Positions 1,124 to 27,136 of a stretch of 58,700 bases of DNA are shown here, piece after piece. The first letter of the stretch is position 1; each line of letters opens with the position of its first letter. Below the pieces are notes generated by a model. It searched no databases. It was not told the origin of the DNA and saw only the letters and a list, made by a program, of their open reading frames with translations. Source of the DNA: Deltaproteobacteria bacterium (GTDB lineage: Bacteria; Desulfobacterota; Syntrophia; Syntrophales; UBA2185); assembly GCA_026388545.1 (NCBI GenBank), contig JAPLJS010000058.1, positions 1 through 58,700 of the forward strand. The letters run 5' to 3'. Both the position numbers and the translations under genes were made by a program.

Positions 1124-1284
1124 GCAATCAATGTCATTGACTTAAGCACTTTGGCCCCCCTCTTTTCTAAAGAGGGGTGGGGGGAGATTTTACGGAATGC
1201 AATTAAAATCCCCCTGAATCCCCCTTTACAAAGGGGGACTTGAAAGAGATAATATTCTTAAGTCAAAGACATTGATCAAGCAAT
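1120..1284. mobile_element. MITE-like palindromic element with 18-bp terminal inverted repeats and 9-bp target duplication
   Basis: The body (1129-1275, 147 bp) starts with CAATGTCATTGACTTAAG and ends with the reverse complement of CAATGTCTTTGACTTAAG, so 17 of 18 terminal bases match. It is flanked by identical 9-bp direct repeats TCAAGCAAT at 1120-1128 and 1276-1284. The interior is two C- or G-rich blocks that are roughly reverse complements of each other, so the whole element is one long imperfect palindrome. It has no coding capacity. A 9-bp duplication points to transposase-mediated insertion; the mobilising family is not identified. Related interior sequence occurs at 24034-24066 and 38858-38902, and a matching end at 24946-24957. 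Confidence 0.8.
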
Positions 1285-3896: not shown

Positions 3897-4463
3897 ATGA
3901 ATATCACTGAACGTATCAAAGGAATTTTGCTTAGGCCACAAGAGGAATGGCAGACCATTGCGGGGGAAACGACACCTATTGCCGAGCTATATACAAACTA
4001 TATTATTTTATTGGCAGCCATCGGACCGGTTGCCGCTTTTATAGGTCTGTCTCTTGTGGGCGTGAGCTTGCCTGTTGGAGGAACCTACAGGGTACCGATA
4101 ACAACAGGTATTCTGCATGCGATCGTTCAGTACGGTCTCACCCTTGGTGGTGTATATGTCCTCGCCTTCATTATCGATGCCCTTGCCCCTACCTTTTCAG
4201 GGGAGAAAAATATCGACCAGGCCTTCAAGCTGGCCACGTATTCTTATACACCGGGTTGGTTGGTCGGTATTTTCGCGCTCATCCCTGTCTTTGGGATCCT
4301 CGGTATTTTGGGGTTATATGGTCTATATCTCCTTTATGTAGGGTTACCTGTTCTCATGAAATCTCCAAAAGAAAAATCCATAGGGTACACGGTTGCCGTA
4401 ATCATCGCAGCGATCATTATTTTTGTCGTGATAGGCGCCATCTCACGAGTCTTTATTTCCTGA
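3897..4463 (+). CDS. Yip1-domain membrane protein
   Basis: This 188-residue protein begins MNITERIKGILLRPQEEW, the amphipathic N terminus typical of bacterial Yip1-family (PF04893) proteins, followed by about five hydrophobic segments (roughly residues 30-52, 70-95, 115-135, 140-155, 165-186). Function of the bacterial family is unknown. I chose the ATG at 3897 because AGGAGG lies directly upstream (3884-3889); a longer TTG start at 3861 is possible but has no comparable ribosome site. It has its own promoter and stands alone, with IS91-type debris immediately downstream. Confidence 0.8.
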   Translation: MNITERIKGILLRPQEEWQTIAGETTPIAELYTNYIILLAAIGPVAAFIGLSLVGVSLPVGGTYRVPITTGILHAIVQYGLTLGGVYVLAFIIDALAPTFSGEKNIDQAFKLATYSYTPGWLVGIFALIPVFGILGILGLYGLYLLYVGLPVLMKSPKEKSIGYTVAVIIAAIIIFVVIGAISRVFIS

Positions 4464-4659
4464 CATACACCAAATATGACTATGCCTGTGATGAGATAAA
4501 ATTGCCGCATCTACAGCGTATTGACAAAAAGAGACTCTACGACGCACCCTTGCACATTGTGGGATACTCTTCGCAATGACCCCGACGATTCTTGACGGAT
4601 TTATATGGCCCGGGCTTTCAATAAACTGGCCGGACTGATGCAGAATCTTGGGCACCCTC

Positions 4660-5010
4660 GTATTAAGTACGGGGTATGCCCTGGAGTCGCTGGCCGCCAT
4701 GTGTTCTCACATACCGAACATGGATGAGCAGATGGTGTGGTGCTAAAGATTCTGTAACATTATCAGAGCCTACAGTGCTTCCTGAAATCCACAAACCGTC
4801 GACTTTGATGAATATGCAGGACTTCATTACGTAATCATTGATATTATTTTCTCAATGATTATGATATGAATGACCTGTTCTTTGGGGGCTGTGGGCCAAC
4901 CGATACATGGTTCAAATCGTGACGTACCTCCGAGAAACCAGGCGGCAATAGAGAAAACAAACCTTAACCCATTGTATCTGGAGAAACCGGTCTACTCGGC
5001 TCAAAAACAA
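4660..5010 (+). mobile_element. IS91-type transposase relic, copy 1
   Basis: In the frame through about 4680-4745 the DNA encodes LAAMCSHIPNMDEQMVWC and then a stop. This resembles the C-terminal end of IS91-family (Y2 tyrosine) transposases, where the consensus is EWLAxMxxHIPxxGEQMVRYYG. The following noncoding part, to about 5010, is alignable with 6598-6870: shared TACGTAATCATTGA, GAAAACAAACC and AAACCGGTCTACT blocks. The stretch 4464-4660 upstream shows no gene I recognise. Heavily decayed and not functional. Confidence 0.6.
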
Positions 5011-5031
5011 CAACAAGGGAAAAACCATTAA

Positions 5032-6585
5032 ATGGAACCATATATGGAACAGTCCTTTTCCCCTGATCAGAAAGACCTCTTTTGTACGGATCTTCCCACC
5101 AGGCCGCTGTCGGGAAATGTAAAAATTCTGGTAACCGGCGCCTCCGGATACATAGGGGGGAGGCTCATCCATGAACTGCGTGCACGGGGCTATCAGGTGC
5201 GGATGATGGTGCGAGATAATGCCGTTCAGTACCAAAACCTCTGGCCGGACGCCGAGGTGGTCATTGCCGATGCTCTTAAATATGAAACTCTGGGAACTGC
5301 ACTCAATGGCATACACACGGCCTTTTATCTGATACATTCTCTGCTCCTTGGACCGCAGGGTTTTCATGATGCTGACAACCATGCCGCACATAATTTCATG
5401 CGGGTTGCCGAGGAAAACAACGTACAACGAATCATCTATCTCGGAGGGCTGGGAGACATTACCACTAACCTGTCCGACCACCTGCACAGCAGGATCCAGG
5501 TGGCGGAAGAACTCAAAAAAGGGACTGTTCCTGTCACCGTCCTCAGGGCTGCAATCATCATTGGATCGGGAAGCGCCTCCTATGAAATTATCAAGCACAT
5601 CGTAAAAAAGATTCCCGTCATTAATGTGCCCAGGTGGACCAACACCCGGTGTCAGCCGATTGCCATCCGCGATGTTATAAAATACCTGGTAGGATGCCTG
5701 GAGACGCCGGCAACATCGGGTAAATCATTCGACATCGGGGGGAAAAATATCTTAACCTACCGGCAGATGCTGGAACTGTTTGCCATGGTTATGGGTAAAA
5801 AACGGACATTTGCCAGTCTCCCGTTTTCCAACCTGCGCTTCTACTCATATATTGCAAGCCTGATTACCCCTGTTCCTGCCCCGATCATCCATTCTCTCAT
5901 TGAAGGATTAAAAAATGAAGTAATCTGTCAAAATGATTCTATCAGGGAAATTATCCCCTTTGAAACCTTAACCTACAGGGAGGCGGTAGAGCGGGCGCTG
6001 CTGAGGGAAGAACAGGACAAAGTATACACAAGATGGTCCGATGCATATCCAAAGAACCACAGCCTTGCCCTGAAACTCCATGAACTGGGGAAACTTCCCT
6101 ATTACACTGCATCGTATTCGATCATCACAGAAAAAAGCGCATCAGCGCTGTTTGAATCTTTGTGCAGGGTTGGAGGTAAGGAAGGCTGGTTCCAAGGCAA
6201 CTGGATGTGGTGGCTCAGAGGGATGGTCGACAGGTTGCTCCTGGGAGTCGGTTCACAGCGGGGGCGACGCAGCGACGTAAATCTGAAAATAAATGATGTC
6301 ATAGATTTCTGGCGTGTTGAAGATATCAGGAAAAACCAGAGACTTTTGCTCCGGGCGGAAATGAAACTGCCTGGAAGGGGATGGCTTGAATTCATGATAA
6401 TGCCTCAGGATGACGGTAAAAACAAGCTGTCGATCACGGCATATTATGATACGGATACGTTAGCAGGAATGTCATACTGGTATATTTTCCTTCCGCTTCA
6501 TAATATAATTTTTAACGGCCTGATAAAGCAAATTGAAAAAAGAAGTCTATACAGCGACAGATCGGAAAGGCAAGAAGATCTTTGA
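5032..6585 (+). CDS. SDR-type NAD(P)-binding oxidoreductase with DUF2867 domain
   Basis: This 517-residue protein starts with about 24 residues of variable sequence, then KILVTGASGYIGGRLIHEL (about 24-42), the Rossmann glycine motif of extended/atypical SDR proteins. NAD-binding features continue to about residue 300. The C-terminal 180 residues, with WFQGNWMWWLRG near 390 and YWYIFLPLHNIIF near 490, match DUF2867, often fused to YbjT-like SDR proteins. Substrate is unknown; quinone, nucleotide-sugar or lipid roles are all conceivable. The gene is bracketed by two IS91-type relics. Its last 15 or so codons run into the second relic in a different frame, so the extreme C terminus is probably not native. 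A weak AGGGAAAAACC precedes the ATG. Confidence 0.85.
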   Translation: MEPYMEQSFSPDQKDLFCTDLPTRPLSGNVKILVTGASGYIGGRLIHELRARGYQVRMMVRDNAVQYQNLWPDAEVVIADALKYETLGTALNGIHTAFYLIHSLLLGPQGFHDADNHAAHNFMRVAEENNVQRIIYLGGLGDITTNLSDHLHSRIQVAEELKKGTVPVTVLRAAIIIGSGSASYEIIKHIVKKIPVINVPRWTNTRCQPIAIRDVIKYLVGCLETPATSGKSFDIGGKNILTYRQMLELFAMVMGKKRTFASLPFSNLRFYSYIASLITPVPAPIIHSLIEGLKNEVICQNDSIREIIPFETLTYREAVERALLREEQDKVYTRWSDAYPKNHSLALKLHELGKLPYYTASYSIITEKSASALFESLCRVGGKEGWFQGNWMWWLRGMVDRLLLGVGSQRGRRSDVNLKINDVIDFWRVEDIRKNQRLLLRAEMKLPGRGWLEFMIMPQDDGKNKLSITAYYDTDTLAGMSYWYIFLPLHNIIFNGLIKQIEKRSLYSDRSERQEDL

Positions 6586-6870
6586 TGCAATTGAATGGCT
6601 GGCCACCATGTGCTCGCACATACCGAACAGGGGAGAGCAGAAGGTGCGGTACTGCGGGGTCTGCAGCACTATCGAGGACTTCAGTCCTTCCTGTTATCCA
6701 CAAATCGTCAACCTCGACGAAGGCAAATGATTTCTATACGTAATCATTGAGTTATTTGTTCGATATTTATGATAGGAATGCGGAATATTCATCAGAAAAA
6801 GGAGATTAACACAGAAAACAAACCCCTACATCTAGTATCGGGGAAAACCGGTCTACTTGATTCAAACAAA
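6540..6870 (+). mobile_element. IS91-type transposase relic, copy 2
   Basis: Reading 6533-6680 gives YTATDRKGKK then FDAIEWLATMCSHIPNRGEQ and KVRYCG, a clear C-terminal fragment of an IS91-family transposase. The sequence beyond is homologous to copy 1 up to about 6870 (AAAACCGGTCTACTTGATTC). It overlaps the final codons of the SDR gene. It contains a TTATCCACA at 6694-6702. The remaining spacer to 6952 shows nothing I recognise. Confidence 0.65.
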
Positions 6871-6952
6871 CTATCTCAAGAATAAAATCCGTCCTTATTC
6901 ACCATTAGAAACTCGTCGCTCTGTCGCCCGTAAAATCTTCAGACGAAACCGG

Positions 6953-7285
6953 TTATTCAAAAAGATGATTGAAGAAGAATCCTACAATGATCAATCCCCC
7001 CAACACCGTTCCGGCAATGACCATGCCGGAGGTTTTGTCCGCATCGATCTTCTTGTCCAGGTCGGCTTTGGAAAAAATATATCCCAGAACGATAAACAGG
7101 ACGATGACAAAAATCCCGTGGGTCGTCCAGTGATGGCCGAAAAGGGATTTCATCCAGGCCTTCAAAGGGGCATAGGTTTCTTTGGCAACGATCAGCAGGG
7201 CGTTGAAAATGCTTGCGATCAGAAACGATACCCCAAACCCGACGGACAACTTGTCCCATGCTTGATTCTCAGATCGCTTTTCCAT
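6953..7285 (-). CDS. Small two-helix membrane protein, function unknown
   Basis: This 110-residue protein is not recognised. Residues about 16-33 (GVSFLIASIFNALLIVAK), 55-70 (GIFVIVLFIVLGYIF) and 87-105 (MVIAGTVLGGLIIVGFFF) are hydrophobic and likely membrane-spanning, separated by short charged loops. It follows the 159-residue membrane protein gene with a 1-nt gap; its GGAGGG ribosome site is inside the end of that gene, so the two are probably translated as a pair. The relationship suggests subunits of one membrane complex. No cofactor motif is evident, apart from paired histidines in GHHWTTHG. Confidence 0.75.
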   Translation of the reverse strand: MEKRSENQAWDKLSVGFGVSFLIASIFNALLIVAKETYAPLKAWMKSLFGHHWTTHGIFVIVLFIVLGYIFSKADLDKKIDADKTSGMVIAGTVLGGLIIVGFFFNHLFE

Positions 7286-7286
7286 G

Positions 7287-7766
7287 TTATTTCCCTCCCA
7301 TCAGGCTCATTTTGACCCCTTTGCTGATCATTGCACCGAAACCTTCCATTCCCAGTCCCAGAACAACGATCGTCAATGCGATCACGATGGTCAAATTCCT
7401 GATTTTCTTGTCTTTGAAAATCTGGTTGCGGAAAGTGACGATGGGAAGCAGGATGCTCAAAAGGATTATCATGAAGAAAATATGCTCCTTCGCCTCCATG
7501 AAAAACGAGTGAGACCATTTCCATGGACCGGCCAGGATGATCGATTTATCGCTGCTACTTTCGGCAGCTCCGTAATAGACGATATACCACCAGCCGCCCA
7601 TCAGATAGGCAAGCCACATGAATAGCGTTGTACCGATACTGGCCAGTTTCAATCTGTGCTGATTCGCCTCGCTACTGTTTGCCGCTTCCACGACAACCCA
7701 GATAGCAGCGAGAATCCCGAATACGCCGAGTACCACATGAGGCATTGTCATTAATTCCTTGAACAT
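7287..7766 (-). CDS. Membrane protein with conserved-looking histidines, function unknown
   Basis: This 159-residue protein has four hydrophobic segments (about 10-28, 44-68, 92-112, 121-142). Histidines at HVVLG (near residue 9), WSHSFF and KEHIFF sit at membrane edges and might bind heme or metal, which is inference. Start: ATG at 7764-7766 preceded by AAGGAGGTTTGATT; a TTG six bases upstream lies between that site and the ATG and is less likely. A near-consensus promoter is about 115 bp upstream. It is co-transcribed with the 110-residue membrane protein. Confidence 0.75.
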   Translation of the reverse strand: MFKELMTMPHVVLGVFGILAAIWVVVEAANSSEANQHRLKLASIGTTLFMWLAYLMGGWWYIVYYGAAESSSDKSIILAGPWKWSHSFFMEAKEHIFFMIILLSILLPIVTFRNQIFKDKKIRNLTIVIALTIVVLGLGMEGFGAMISKGVKMSLMGGK

Positions 7767-24125: not shown

Positions 24126-24341
24126 ATGAAGTACGATGACGATAAATTTTACGAATTTCAAGAGAAAGACGCCCCTGACAAGTGTTTCATTTGCAGCAAA
24201 GACACAGCGGAACTGCTGATCTTTCGACAAATCGAGAGCATGTTGCTTGTTCACCTGTGCCGGGACTGTGTATATGAAAATATCGCGGACTATCTTTTGG
24301 ACAACACGAGGCCCTGGCTCAGCGAAAAGGACAAAATCTAA
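24126..24341 (+). CDS. Zinc-ribbon miniprotein, tandem copy 1
   Basis: This 71-residue protein of unknown family has paired CxxC motifs, CFIC (C20, C23) and CRDC (C45, C48), suggesting a four-cysteine zinc ribbon. The C terminus ENIADYLLDNTRPWLSEK is nearly identical in the neighbour at 24503-24724. About 65 percent of positions appear identical between the two. The start is preceded by AAGAGACGATAC; the neighbour has the similar AAGAGACGACCT, so the upstream region was duplicated too. It follows the kinase operon and may belong to it. Confidence 0.75.
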   Translation: MKYDDDKFYEFQEKDAPDKCFICSKDTAELLIFRQIESMLLVHLCRDCVYENIADYLLDNTRPWLSEKDKI

Positions 24342-24502
24342 TTTTTTTGTAGTAAAAACCCCTTAAAAAGGGACCATGAAAATTTCCCGTATAACTTCCT
24401 TCAGTGCGAAAAGTTTCTCAGGCGTTTCGATAAATCTACTTGATAAGCTCTCTCATTTTGGATAGGCTTGATCCTGCTAAATTATTACCGAAGAGACGAC
24501 CT

Positions 24503-24724
24503 ATGCCCATAATATACGATGACGCAAGAAGTTACCAGTTTCACGAGAAAGACGCCCCTGACAGGTGTTTCACGTGTAGTAACAACACAGAGACTCTGCT
24601 GGTCTTGCGGCACATCGCAAGCATGAAGCTCGTTCATCTGTGCCGGGACTGCATTTGTGAAAATATGGCAGACTATCTTCTGGATAACACAAGGCCCTGG
24701 CTCGGCGAGAAAGGCAAATTTTAA
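24503..24724 (+). CDS. Zinc-ribbon miniprotein, tandem copy 2
   Basis: This 73-residue paralogue of the preceding protein has C22/C25 (CFTC) and C47/C50 (CRDC), with KDAPDRCF and DNTRPWLGEKGKF conserved. I prefer ATG at 24503; an upstream in-frame start at 24440 would add residues with no counterpart in copy 1. Function is unknown; the size, charge and zinc ribbon would fit a regulator or adaptor of the adjacent signalling proteins, which is inference. Confidence 0.7.
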   Translation: MPIIYDDARSYQFHEKDAPDRCFTCSNNTETLLVLRHIASMKLVHLCRDCICENMADYLLDNTRPWLGEKGKF

Positions 24725-24931
24725 TCATTCCTTATAACCCCGATTCACTGAAATTCCCGCCTTCTTTTCGTATTCCATTATTTTCTTCCATAAACGTAAT
24801 TCTATGGATTCTTTTGTCCCTATTTTTGCGAAGATTCCTCGAATGGCGTTTGCGGTTAAGAAAAGAGACGATCTTGACAATTCAGAGACAATGCGGTTAA
24901 ATGCTTTAAATATGAAGATATTGTTAGGATA
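24725..24931 (-). pseudogene. Start-less coding-like remnant
   Basis: The minus-strand frame from 24931 to a stop at 24725 gives about 68 residues of protein-like sequence (FKAFNRIVSELSRSSLFL then TANAIRGIFAKIGTKESIEL and KKIMEYEKKAGISVNRGYKE), but no start codon with a ribosome site. Its 5-prime end stops a few bases from the MITE footprint at 24937-24966, as if the gene had been truncated there. Not identified. The rest of 24967-25057 shows nothing notable. Confidence 0.35.
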
Positions 24932-24936
24932 TCATT

Positions 24937-24966
24937 ATTGAATAGTCAATGACATTGATTGAATAG
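24937..24966. repeat. Probable MITE excision/deletion footprint
   Basis: Two identical 9-bp direct repeats ATTGAATAG (24937-24945 and 24958-24966) enclose TCAATGACATTG, which is exactly the terminal 12 bases of the MITE inverted repeat described at 1120-1284. This is what remains if an element with 9-bp target duplication lost all but one end. Confidence 0.65.
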
Positions 24967-25057
24967 TATCATAAATAAAACAGTTGGAGATATTTTATGA
25001 CTGTGAAACCTACAGAGGGGCCTTTGAACAAAATGTCAAGATACAGGAGCAGGGGAT

Positions 25058-27136
25058 ATGACGGATCAAGAACGCGCTGAAGAGGCCTTGCAGGAGATTG
25101 AAGAGCGGAAGAAGACGGAAGAGGCGCTCCGCGCGTCCGAAGAAAGGTATAGAAGTGTCGTGGATCATATCGGCATCGGCATATCCCTGATCAGTCCGGA
25201 CATGGAAATAATTACCCTTAACGACCAGATGAAGAAATGGTTTCCCGATATCGATGTTTCAAAAAAACCCCTCTGCTATGAAGCTTTCAATAACCCGCCA
25301 AGAGAAACGATATGTTCCTATTGTCCAACAGTAAAGACATTGCAGGATGGTCAGGTACACGAATCTATCACAGAAACACCGGCAGGCAACGAAATAAGAC
25401 ATTACAGGATTATTGCGTCTCCTATAAAAGACAGAAATGGCAACGTCCTGTCTGCCATCGAGATGGTGGACGATTTTACCGAAATATTGAAGGTTCAGGA
25501 AAGATTACAGGAATCAGAAGCCAAATACCGCAATTTGATAGAGAACATCAACGATGTCATCTTTTCCGTGGATACCCGGAGATGTATCACCTACATCAGC
25601 CCCGCCGTAGAGCGGTTTCTCCAATACACGGTGAACGAAATCATCGGAGTTCCTTTCACCCGATTTGTGCATCCCGATGATCTGCCCGCGTTGCTGTCCA
25701 GGTTCGAGAAAACCCTGGACGGAAATTTACAGCCGTATGAATTCCGGGTGTTTGCAAAAGACGGAGCGATATTTCATGTACGCACGTCCAGCCGCCCGCT
25801 CTGGGACGATGGCCGCCTGGTCGGTCTTACCGGCGTTATGACCGATATCAGTGAATTCAAGCGGGCTGAGGAGGCACTGCGGGAGTCGGAACGGCGATTA
25901 TCCGATATTATTGATTTTTTACCCGATGCAACATTTGCTATCGATCTTAATGGTAAGGTTATCGCATGGAACCGTGCCATTGAAGAGATGACCGGCGTCA
26001 AGGCTCCCGACATGCTGGGAAAAGGGAATTATGAATATGCCCTGCCGTTTTACGGGAAACGGAGGCAGATATTGATTGATCTGGTATTCAGTTCCGATGA
26101 AGAGATCGAAAAAAAATATTCTTTTATCAAAAAAGAAAAAGACATCATTTTAGCCGAGACCGATGTGATCATGAACGGGGAAAATCGAGTCCTCTGGGGG
26201 AAAGCCAGATGTTTATATGACAGTAAGGGGAATATCGTAGGGGCCATTCAGTCTATACGGGATATCACCGACCGCAAGCAGGCGGAGGAGGCGCTGCGAT
26301 TCAGCAACCTTATCCTTTCGACTCAACAGGAAACGACGCATGATGGAATACTCGTAGTAGATCCGGAAGGCAAGATGATCTCATGGAATCAACGCTTTAT
26401 TGATATGTGGGACATTCCCTCACATGTCTTGGAAGCACAATCTGACGAACTCGCCATAGAATCTGTGTTGGGCAAACTGGTTAACCCGAAGCAATTCCTG
26501 GCCGGAGTGCGGCGCCTTTACGACGATATCAACGCGACATCTGATGATGAACTGGCGCTCGCCGATGGCAGGCTATTCGATCGCCACTCAGCCCCAATGA
26601 TCGGAGGGGATGGCAGACACTATGGTCGAGTCTGGTATTTCCGTGATATCACCGACCGCAAGCGGGCAGAAGAAATATTGAAAAAAAGAGAAAGGGAATT
26701 GGAAATCAAGTCCCGTAACCTTGAGGAACTCAATGCTGCCCTGAAAGTCCTGTTGAGGCAGAGGGAAAAAGACAAGGACGAAATTGAAGAGCAGGTACTG
26801 GCTAACGTCAAGCAACTCGCTATGCCCTATATTGAACGATTGAAAAAGAGCCGCTTAAAGGACAAAGAAGCAGACTATGTAAACATCCTCGAATCAAATC
26901 TGATAAACATTATTTCTCCATTTTCAAACAAACTGTCCTCGAAATACCTAAAACTCACTCCCAAAGAAATTCAAATAGCTAATCTTATTAAAGAAGGTAA
27001 GACGAGTAAGGACACTGCCGAATTATTGAATATATCGCCAGGGACAGTTGAATTTCACAGGGAAAATATCAGAAGAAAACTTAATCTTAAAAATAAAAAA
27101 GACAACCTTCGATCCTATCTTTTGACATTGTCATAA
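25058..27136 (+). CDS. Multi-PAS regulator with LuxR-type DNA-binding domain
   Basis: This 692-residue soluble protein has four PAS/PAC modules (about 25-145, 150-275, 280-405, 415-545), each ending in a typical PAC DIS/DIT segment such as FRDITDRKRAEE. A coiled coil follows (about 545-600), then an unassigned helical segment, and a LuxR-type helix-turn-helix at about 630-692 (LTPKEIQIANLIKEGKTSKD; TVEFHRENIRRKL). There is no kinase or receiver domain, so sensing and DNA binding occur in one protein. The first PAS domain holds a CSYCP motif that could bind a cofactor. AGGAGCAGGGGAT is the ribosome site. Confidence 0.88.
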   Translation: MTDQERAEEALQEIEERKKTEEALRASEERYRSVVDHIGIGISLISPDMEIITLNDQMKKWFPDIDVSKKPLCYEAFNNPPRETICSYCPTVKTLQDGQVHESITETPAGNEIRHYRIIASPIKDRNGNVLSAIEMVDDFTEILKVQERLQESEAKYRNLIENINDVIFSVDTRRCITYISPAVERFLQYTVNEIIGVPFTRFVHPDDLPALLSRFEKTLDGNLQPYEFRVFAKDGAIFHVRTSSRPLWDDGRLVGLTGVMTDISEFKRAEEALRESERRLSDIIDFLPDATFAIDLNGKVIAWNRAIEEMTGVKAPDMLGKGNYEYALPFYGKRRQILIDLVFSSDEEIEKKYSFIKKEKDIILAETDVIMNGENRVLWGKARCLYDSKGNIVGAIQSIRDITDRKQAEEALRFSNLILSTQQETTHDGILVVDPEGKMISWNQRFIDMWDIPSHVLEAQSDELAIESVLGKLVNPKQFLAGVRRLYDDINATSDDELALADGRLFDRHSAPMIGGDGRHYGRVWYFRDITDRKRAEEILKKRERELEIKSRNLEELNAALKVLLRQREKDKDEIEEQVLANVKQLAMPYIERLKKSRLKDKEADYVNILESNLINIISPFSNKLSSKYLKLTPKEIQIANLIKEGKTSKDTAELLNISPGTVEFHRENIRRKLNLKNKKDNLRSYLLTLS

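Follow-up and report, generated by a model that had tools for sequence, protein, structure and literature searches.

What left the short arrangement on this Syntrophales contig in which a direct repeat encloses the very end of a mobile element, and does it record an insertion that was later lost? The window, meaning the whole stretch of 58,700 nucleotides that was analysed, comes from a source genome of 3.28 Mb in 128 contigs, and positions 24937-24967 within it read ATTGAATAGTCAATGACATTGATTGAATAGT. A repeat finder and a direct reading of the bases both place the 10-bp sequence ATTGAATAGT at 24937-24946 and again at 24958-24967, 21 bases apart on the forward strand. Between these two copies of a target duplication, 24947-24957 (forward strand) carries CAATGACATTG, the terminal 11 bp of a family's terminal inverted repeat, in this case its right end. 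The scar therefore has a register of 10 + 11 + 10, with a 10-bp direct repeat enclosing 11 bp, in which the duplication abuts the tip without gap or overlap and both target copies are kept around a short piece of element end. The first-pass annotation had given these bases as they stand in the window and had divided them into a 9-bp duplication around 12 trapped bases; the duplication is in fact 10 bp long and the trapped segment 11, since the cut after nine bases had moved the final T of the left copy into the element. The 10 + 11 register fits the family better than 9 + 12 because family copies have 10-bp target duplications. We regard the arrangement as very probably the scar of a near-precise deletion of an IS4-type MITE or of its parent insertion sequence, a genuine and ordinary event.

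The family to which the tip belongs is represented in the same window by an intact MITE of 146 bp at 1129-1274 (forward strand), recognised by its paired ends and repeats, and it folds as a hairpin. Its 18-bp terminal inverted repeats, CAATGTCATTGACTTAAG and CTTAAGTCAAAGACATTG, are flanked by the target duplication ATCAAGCAAT at 1119-1128 and 1275-1284 (forward strand), and the proposal that the scar is a footprint of this terminal-repeat family, set within a target duplication of its own, is supported. Across the whole genome, each strand carries TCAATGACATTG 15 times, with no occurrence of its reversed form, and CAATGTCATTGACTTAAG with up to 3 mismatches yields 60 matches versus 1 for its reversed control. 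Pairing of ends gives 23 two-ended copies, mostly of 146-147 bp, one of which pairs ends belonging to neighbouring copies. The target duplication is 10 bp long: 19 of the 23 match at 8-10 of 10 positions. Among the 19 filtered copies, identity reaches 92% at a duplication length of 10 versus 23-37% at other lengths, a figure favoured by a filter that itself works in the 10-bp register, which makes the unselected 19/23 the fairer measure. Many copies sharing terminal inverted repeats, together with a target duplication of fixed length, are what is looked for in an IS4-family MITE, and both are found here. A literature search for this MITE family found no description of it.

Much shorter two-ended derivatives also occur, one of 84 bp on contig C65 of the source genome (6669-6752) and one of 68 bp at locus L081 (880-947), the latter with its 10-bp target duplication perfectly kept. 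In a separate observation, the right flank of the scar at 24958-24980 (ATTGAATAGTATCA) resembles that of the copy on contig C3 (L001 from 1648; ACATTTGAATAGTATCA). Such A/T-rich flanks, also seen at other copies, suggest a target preference.

Copies with the same ends are found far beyond the source genome. Among 120 fetched stretches with family ends, assigned to phyla by their record titles, most come from Bacteroidota, Thermodesulfobacteriota, Myxococcota, and Bacillota, and many of these copies, in other phyla, again show 10-bp duplications. One of them, L176 from Salinicoccus sp. YB14-2, is a 1768-bp element at 5723-7490 with both ends, a duplication matching at 9/10 positions, and a transposase that scores 133 bits against NCBIfam NF033592 (transpos_IS4_1, IS4 family; cut-off 115) and that looks interrupted. 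A second, from a Thiotrichaceae bin (L199), places a single family end next to an NF033592 transposase of 151 bits. L176 thus combines these ends with an IS4-family transposase, and elements with this terminal repeat in other genomes encode transposases of the IS4 family. The family resembles MITEs mobilised by IS4 transposases (NF033592) in being short and noncoding, in sharing its ends with transposase-bearing elements, and in making 10-bp target duplications; it differs from them in the 11-bp near-palindromic tip of its terminal repeat and in having its matching transposase only in other genomes (Salinicoccus L176 and Thiotrichaceae L199). An autonomous partner with matching ends was sought in the source genome and none was found: two NF033592 loci score above the cut-off, with no related terminal repeat near either, an absence that is uncertain in an assembly of 128 contigs. 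The matching transposase source may have been lost, have diverged, or lie unassembled.

Two of the other genomes deserve mention in their own right. The Desulfobacteraceae genome S08.Bin136 (G041) has a very high family load, the 11-bp tip occurring 223 times in its 6.9 Mb versus 2 in the control. In a Syntrophaceae genome (L125, 3639-5379), two family copies of ~163 bp each flank a gene at 4000-5169 that, from its sequence, we take to be phosphofructokinase-like; the outer flanks of the pair both read ATATACTAGT, and the inner flanks ATATACTAGT and GTATAGTAGT. The pair could have moved the host gene as a composite, or the two copies could have a target preference in common.

Could the 31 bp at 24937-24967 have arisen with no element at all, by coincidence or as a 21-bp partial tandem duplication in which ATTGAATAGTCAATGACATTG is followed by ATTGAATAGT? 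Any footprint of this kind is formally a 1.5-copy tandem repeat, and a few more perfect 10-bp repeats lie close together in the window; yet the spacer coincides exactly with the tip of this family, the repeat has exactly the length of the family's duplications, and the numbers leave such an origin with almost no credibility. Within the window, 10.8 million comparisons give 20 perfect 10-mers at a fixed spacing, or 1.8e-6 per position, so that ~8e-5 perfect footprints are expected by chance among the 41 CAATGNCATTG sites of the genome, where 1 is seen. The footprint is secure against chance. The first-pass annotation had proposed a genome scan for tips flanked by 9-bp repeats; the only perfect footprint found among the genomic sites is the one at 24937-24967 itself, and its repeats are of 10 bp. 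None of 12 other solo sites fetched from the source genome has matching flanks. Over 326 distinct CAATGNCATTG sites in the source and other genomes, the flanks agree at 10/10 positions once and at 8/10 twice, with ~0.5 expected by chance at 8/10 or better. The two 8/10 cases, L346 and L382, are close to that rate and we do not accept them as scars; L382 also lies within low-complexity CGCAAC repeats. The survey gives no sign that such scars are common: they are rare, with one perfect case in 326 sites.

The sequence of the ends accounts for how the element could have been removed. The terminal repeat opens with an 11-bp near-palindrome, CAATG-T-CATTG, and the tip left in the scar reads CAATG-A-CATTG, with a central A. 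Because the tip is near-palindromic, any consensus-ended copy has CAATG as a direct repeat, once at its outer left tip and once in the inner part of its right end. Here the last three target bases are AGT, and with a consensus right end of AAGTCAATG they extend the direct repeat to the 8-bp AGTCAATG. We place this putative junction microhomology at 24944-24951 (forward strand), with AGT supplied by the target duplication and CAATG by the tip. When an ancestor idealised from consensus ends (target plus terminal repeat, joined to terminal repeat plus target) is collapsed at AGTCAATG, the product is the observed 31 bp exactly; in that ancestor only the target duplication is a longer direct repeat than AGTCAATG. 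Excision at the alternative repeat CATTGA can be set aside, as it would leave CAATGTCATTG, with a central T where the site has A. The earlier suggestion of element loss by deletion is consistent with this specific 8-bp microhomology.

We infer that a full element once stood at the site and was lost along the following route. An element with CAATGTCATTGACTTAAG ends would have inserted and duplicated ATTGAATAGT; it was most likely a 146-bp MITE, and possibly an IS4-family insertion sequence with the same ends. A deletion would then have joined the AGTCAATG formed by the left target end and the outer left tip to the AGTCAATG within the right terminal repeat, removing the intervening DNA, with only the final 11 bp of the right end remaining between the two target copies. 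The MITE forms a strong hairpin in which the ends pair (z of -7.3 and -8.4, the former for the intact copy at 1129-1274), and the likely route is polymerase slippage at the base of a terminal-repeat hairpin that would place the two short repeats side by side.

One alternative keeps the footprint and alters solely the route of the deletion. Under it, a cut-and-paste IS4-type excision would have broken the donor site, and the break would have been rejoined at one end by microhomology, leaving the same 11 bp. The junction would look identical, and elements with this terminal repeat do carry IS4-family transposases (L176 and L199); against this, the fragmented source assembly of 128 contigs yielded no transposase with matching ends, and the 8-bp junction repeat suffices without one. 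We consider transposase-linked loss unlikely. The identity of the lost element raises a related matter, since the scar cannot separate a lost MITE from a lost autonomous insertion sequence because the 11-bp tip is common to both, as the 1768-bp element of L176 illustrates. The scar mechanism would be unchanged if a full-length insertion sequence had been lost, a reading that we hold to be rather improbable, as the source genome shows about two dozen MITEs and no such insertion sequence, and as hairpin-assisted deletion would be likelier for a 146-bp element. Of the original attribution to "the same MITE", then, the family stands, and the MITE identity does not follow, as the loss of an insertion sequence with identical ends would produce this scar too.

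Loss by slippage at a MITE would make the scar a further instance of an already known kind of event. A review (PMC12524634), with reference to d'Alencon et al., describes how Tn10-type transposons undergo nearly precise excision between short direct repeats, with an inverted-repeat hairpin, and attributes this to slippage between those repeats. The likeness lies in a short-direct-repeat deletion near the ends of a hairpin element that leaves both target copies and a short end piece. The present case differs in that the remnant is only 11 bp, in that the direct repeat consists of a palindromic tip plus three target bases, and in that it is known from sequence alone. For comparison, the Tn10 excision remnant is ~50 bp.

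The genomic surroundings of the scar were also considered. On its left are two small genes that are paralogous to each other (24126-24341 and 24440-24724), and on its right is a PAS/LuxR-type regulator gene (25058-27136). The two small genes are adjacent, share 78% DNA identity, and encode proteins of 71 and 94 residues with paired CxxC motifs, for which we found no Pfam or NCBIfam match. A coding-like remnant had been said to adjoin the site, and the family and relative searches lend no support to the neighbouring short open reading frames: that at 24804-24941 (forward strand), which ends near the scar, has no Pfam match, and that at 24725-24880 (reverse strand) matches no NCBIfam family and is without a relative in 59 other genomes.

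This setting invites the reading that the near-palindrome CAATG-A-CATTG, ~100 bp upstream of a sensor-regulator gene, is with its flanking repeats an operator kept by selection upstream of 25058-27136. Promoter-like matches around the site are at the level of shuffled sequence (2 vs 1.5), and in relatives it is the coding part, not the scar stretch, that finds DNA matches; we judge an operator highly improbable and retain the deletion scar. Neither a filled nor an empty ortholog turned up among 40 relatives and the whole order, the substantial matches lying in the downstream PAS regulator gene, and the intergenic stretch returned only 24-31-base fragments, none aligning across the site, from 154 other genomes of the order. 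The relatives compared include no other species of the same genus. As the intergenic DNA is not conserved and no genome of the order aligns across the site, the insertion is not polarisable by an ortholog. The outcome that the first-pass annotation named as its refutation, a conserved arrangement in distant relatives devoid of the family, did not appear; with nothing to align, this does not count as a check survived.

The palindromic tip supplies a built-in direct repeat in every intact copy, and family members across many phyla might on that account be prone to losses that leave an 11-bp scar, a generalisation that we offer as doubtful. If it were true, the 11-bp scar would be a recognisable signature of past insertions. 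The scar is otherwise a routine genome fossil, and it indicates that a widespread MITE family loses copies as well as gaining them. The mark left behind, a 10-bp repeat around an 11-bp palindrome, is specific and lends itself to counting in other genomes.
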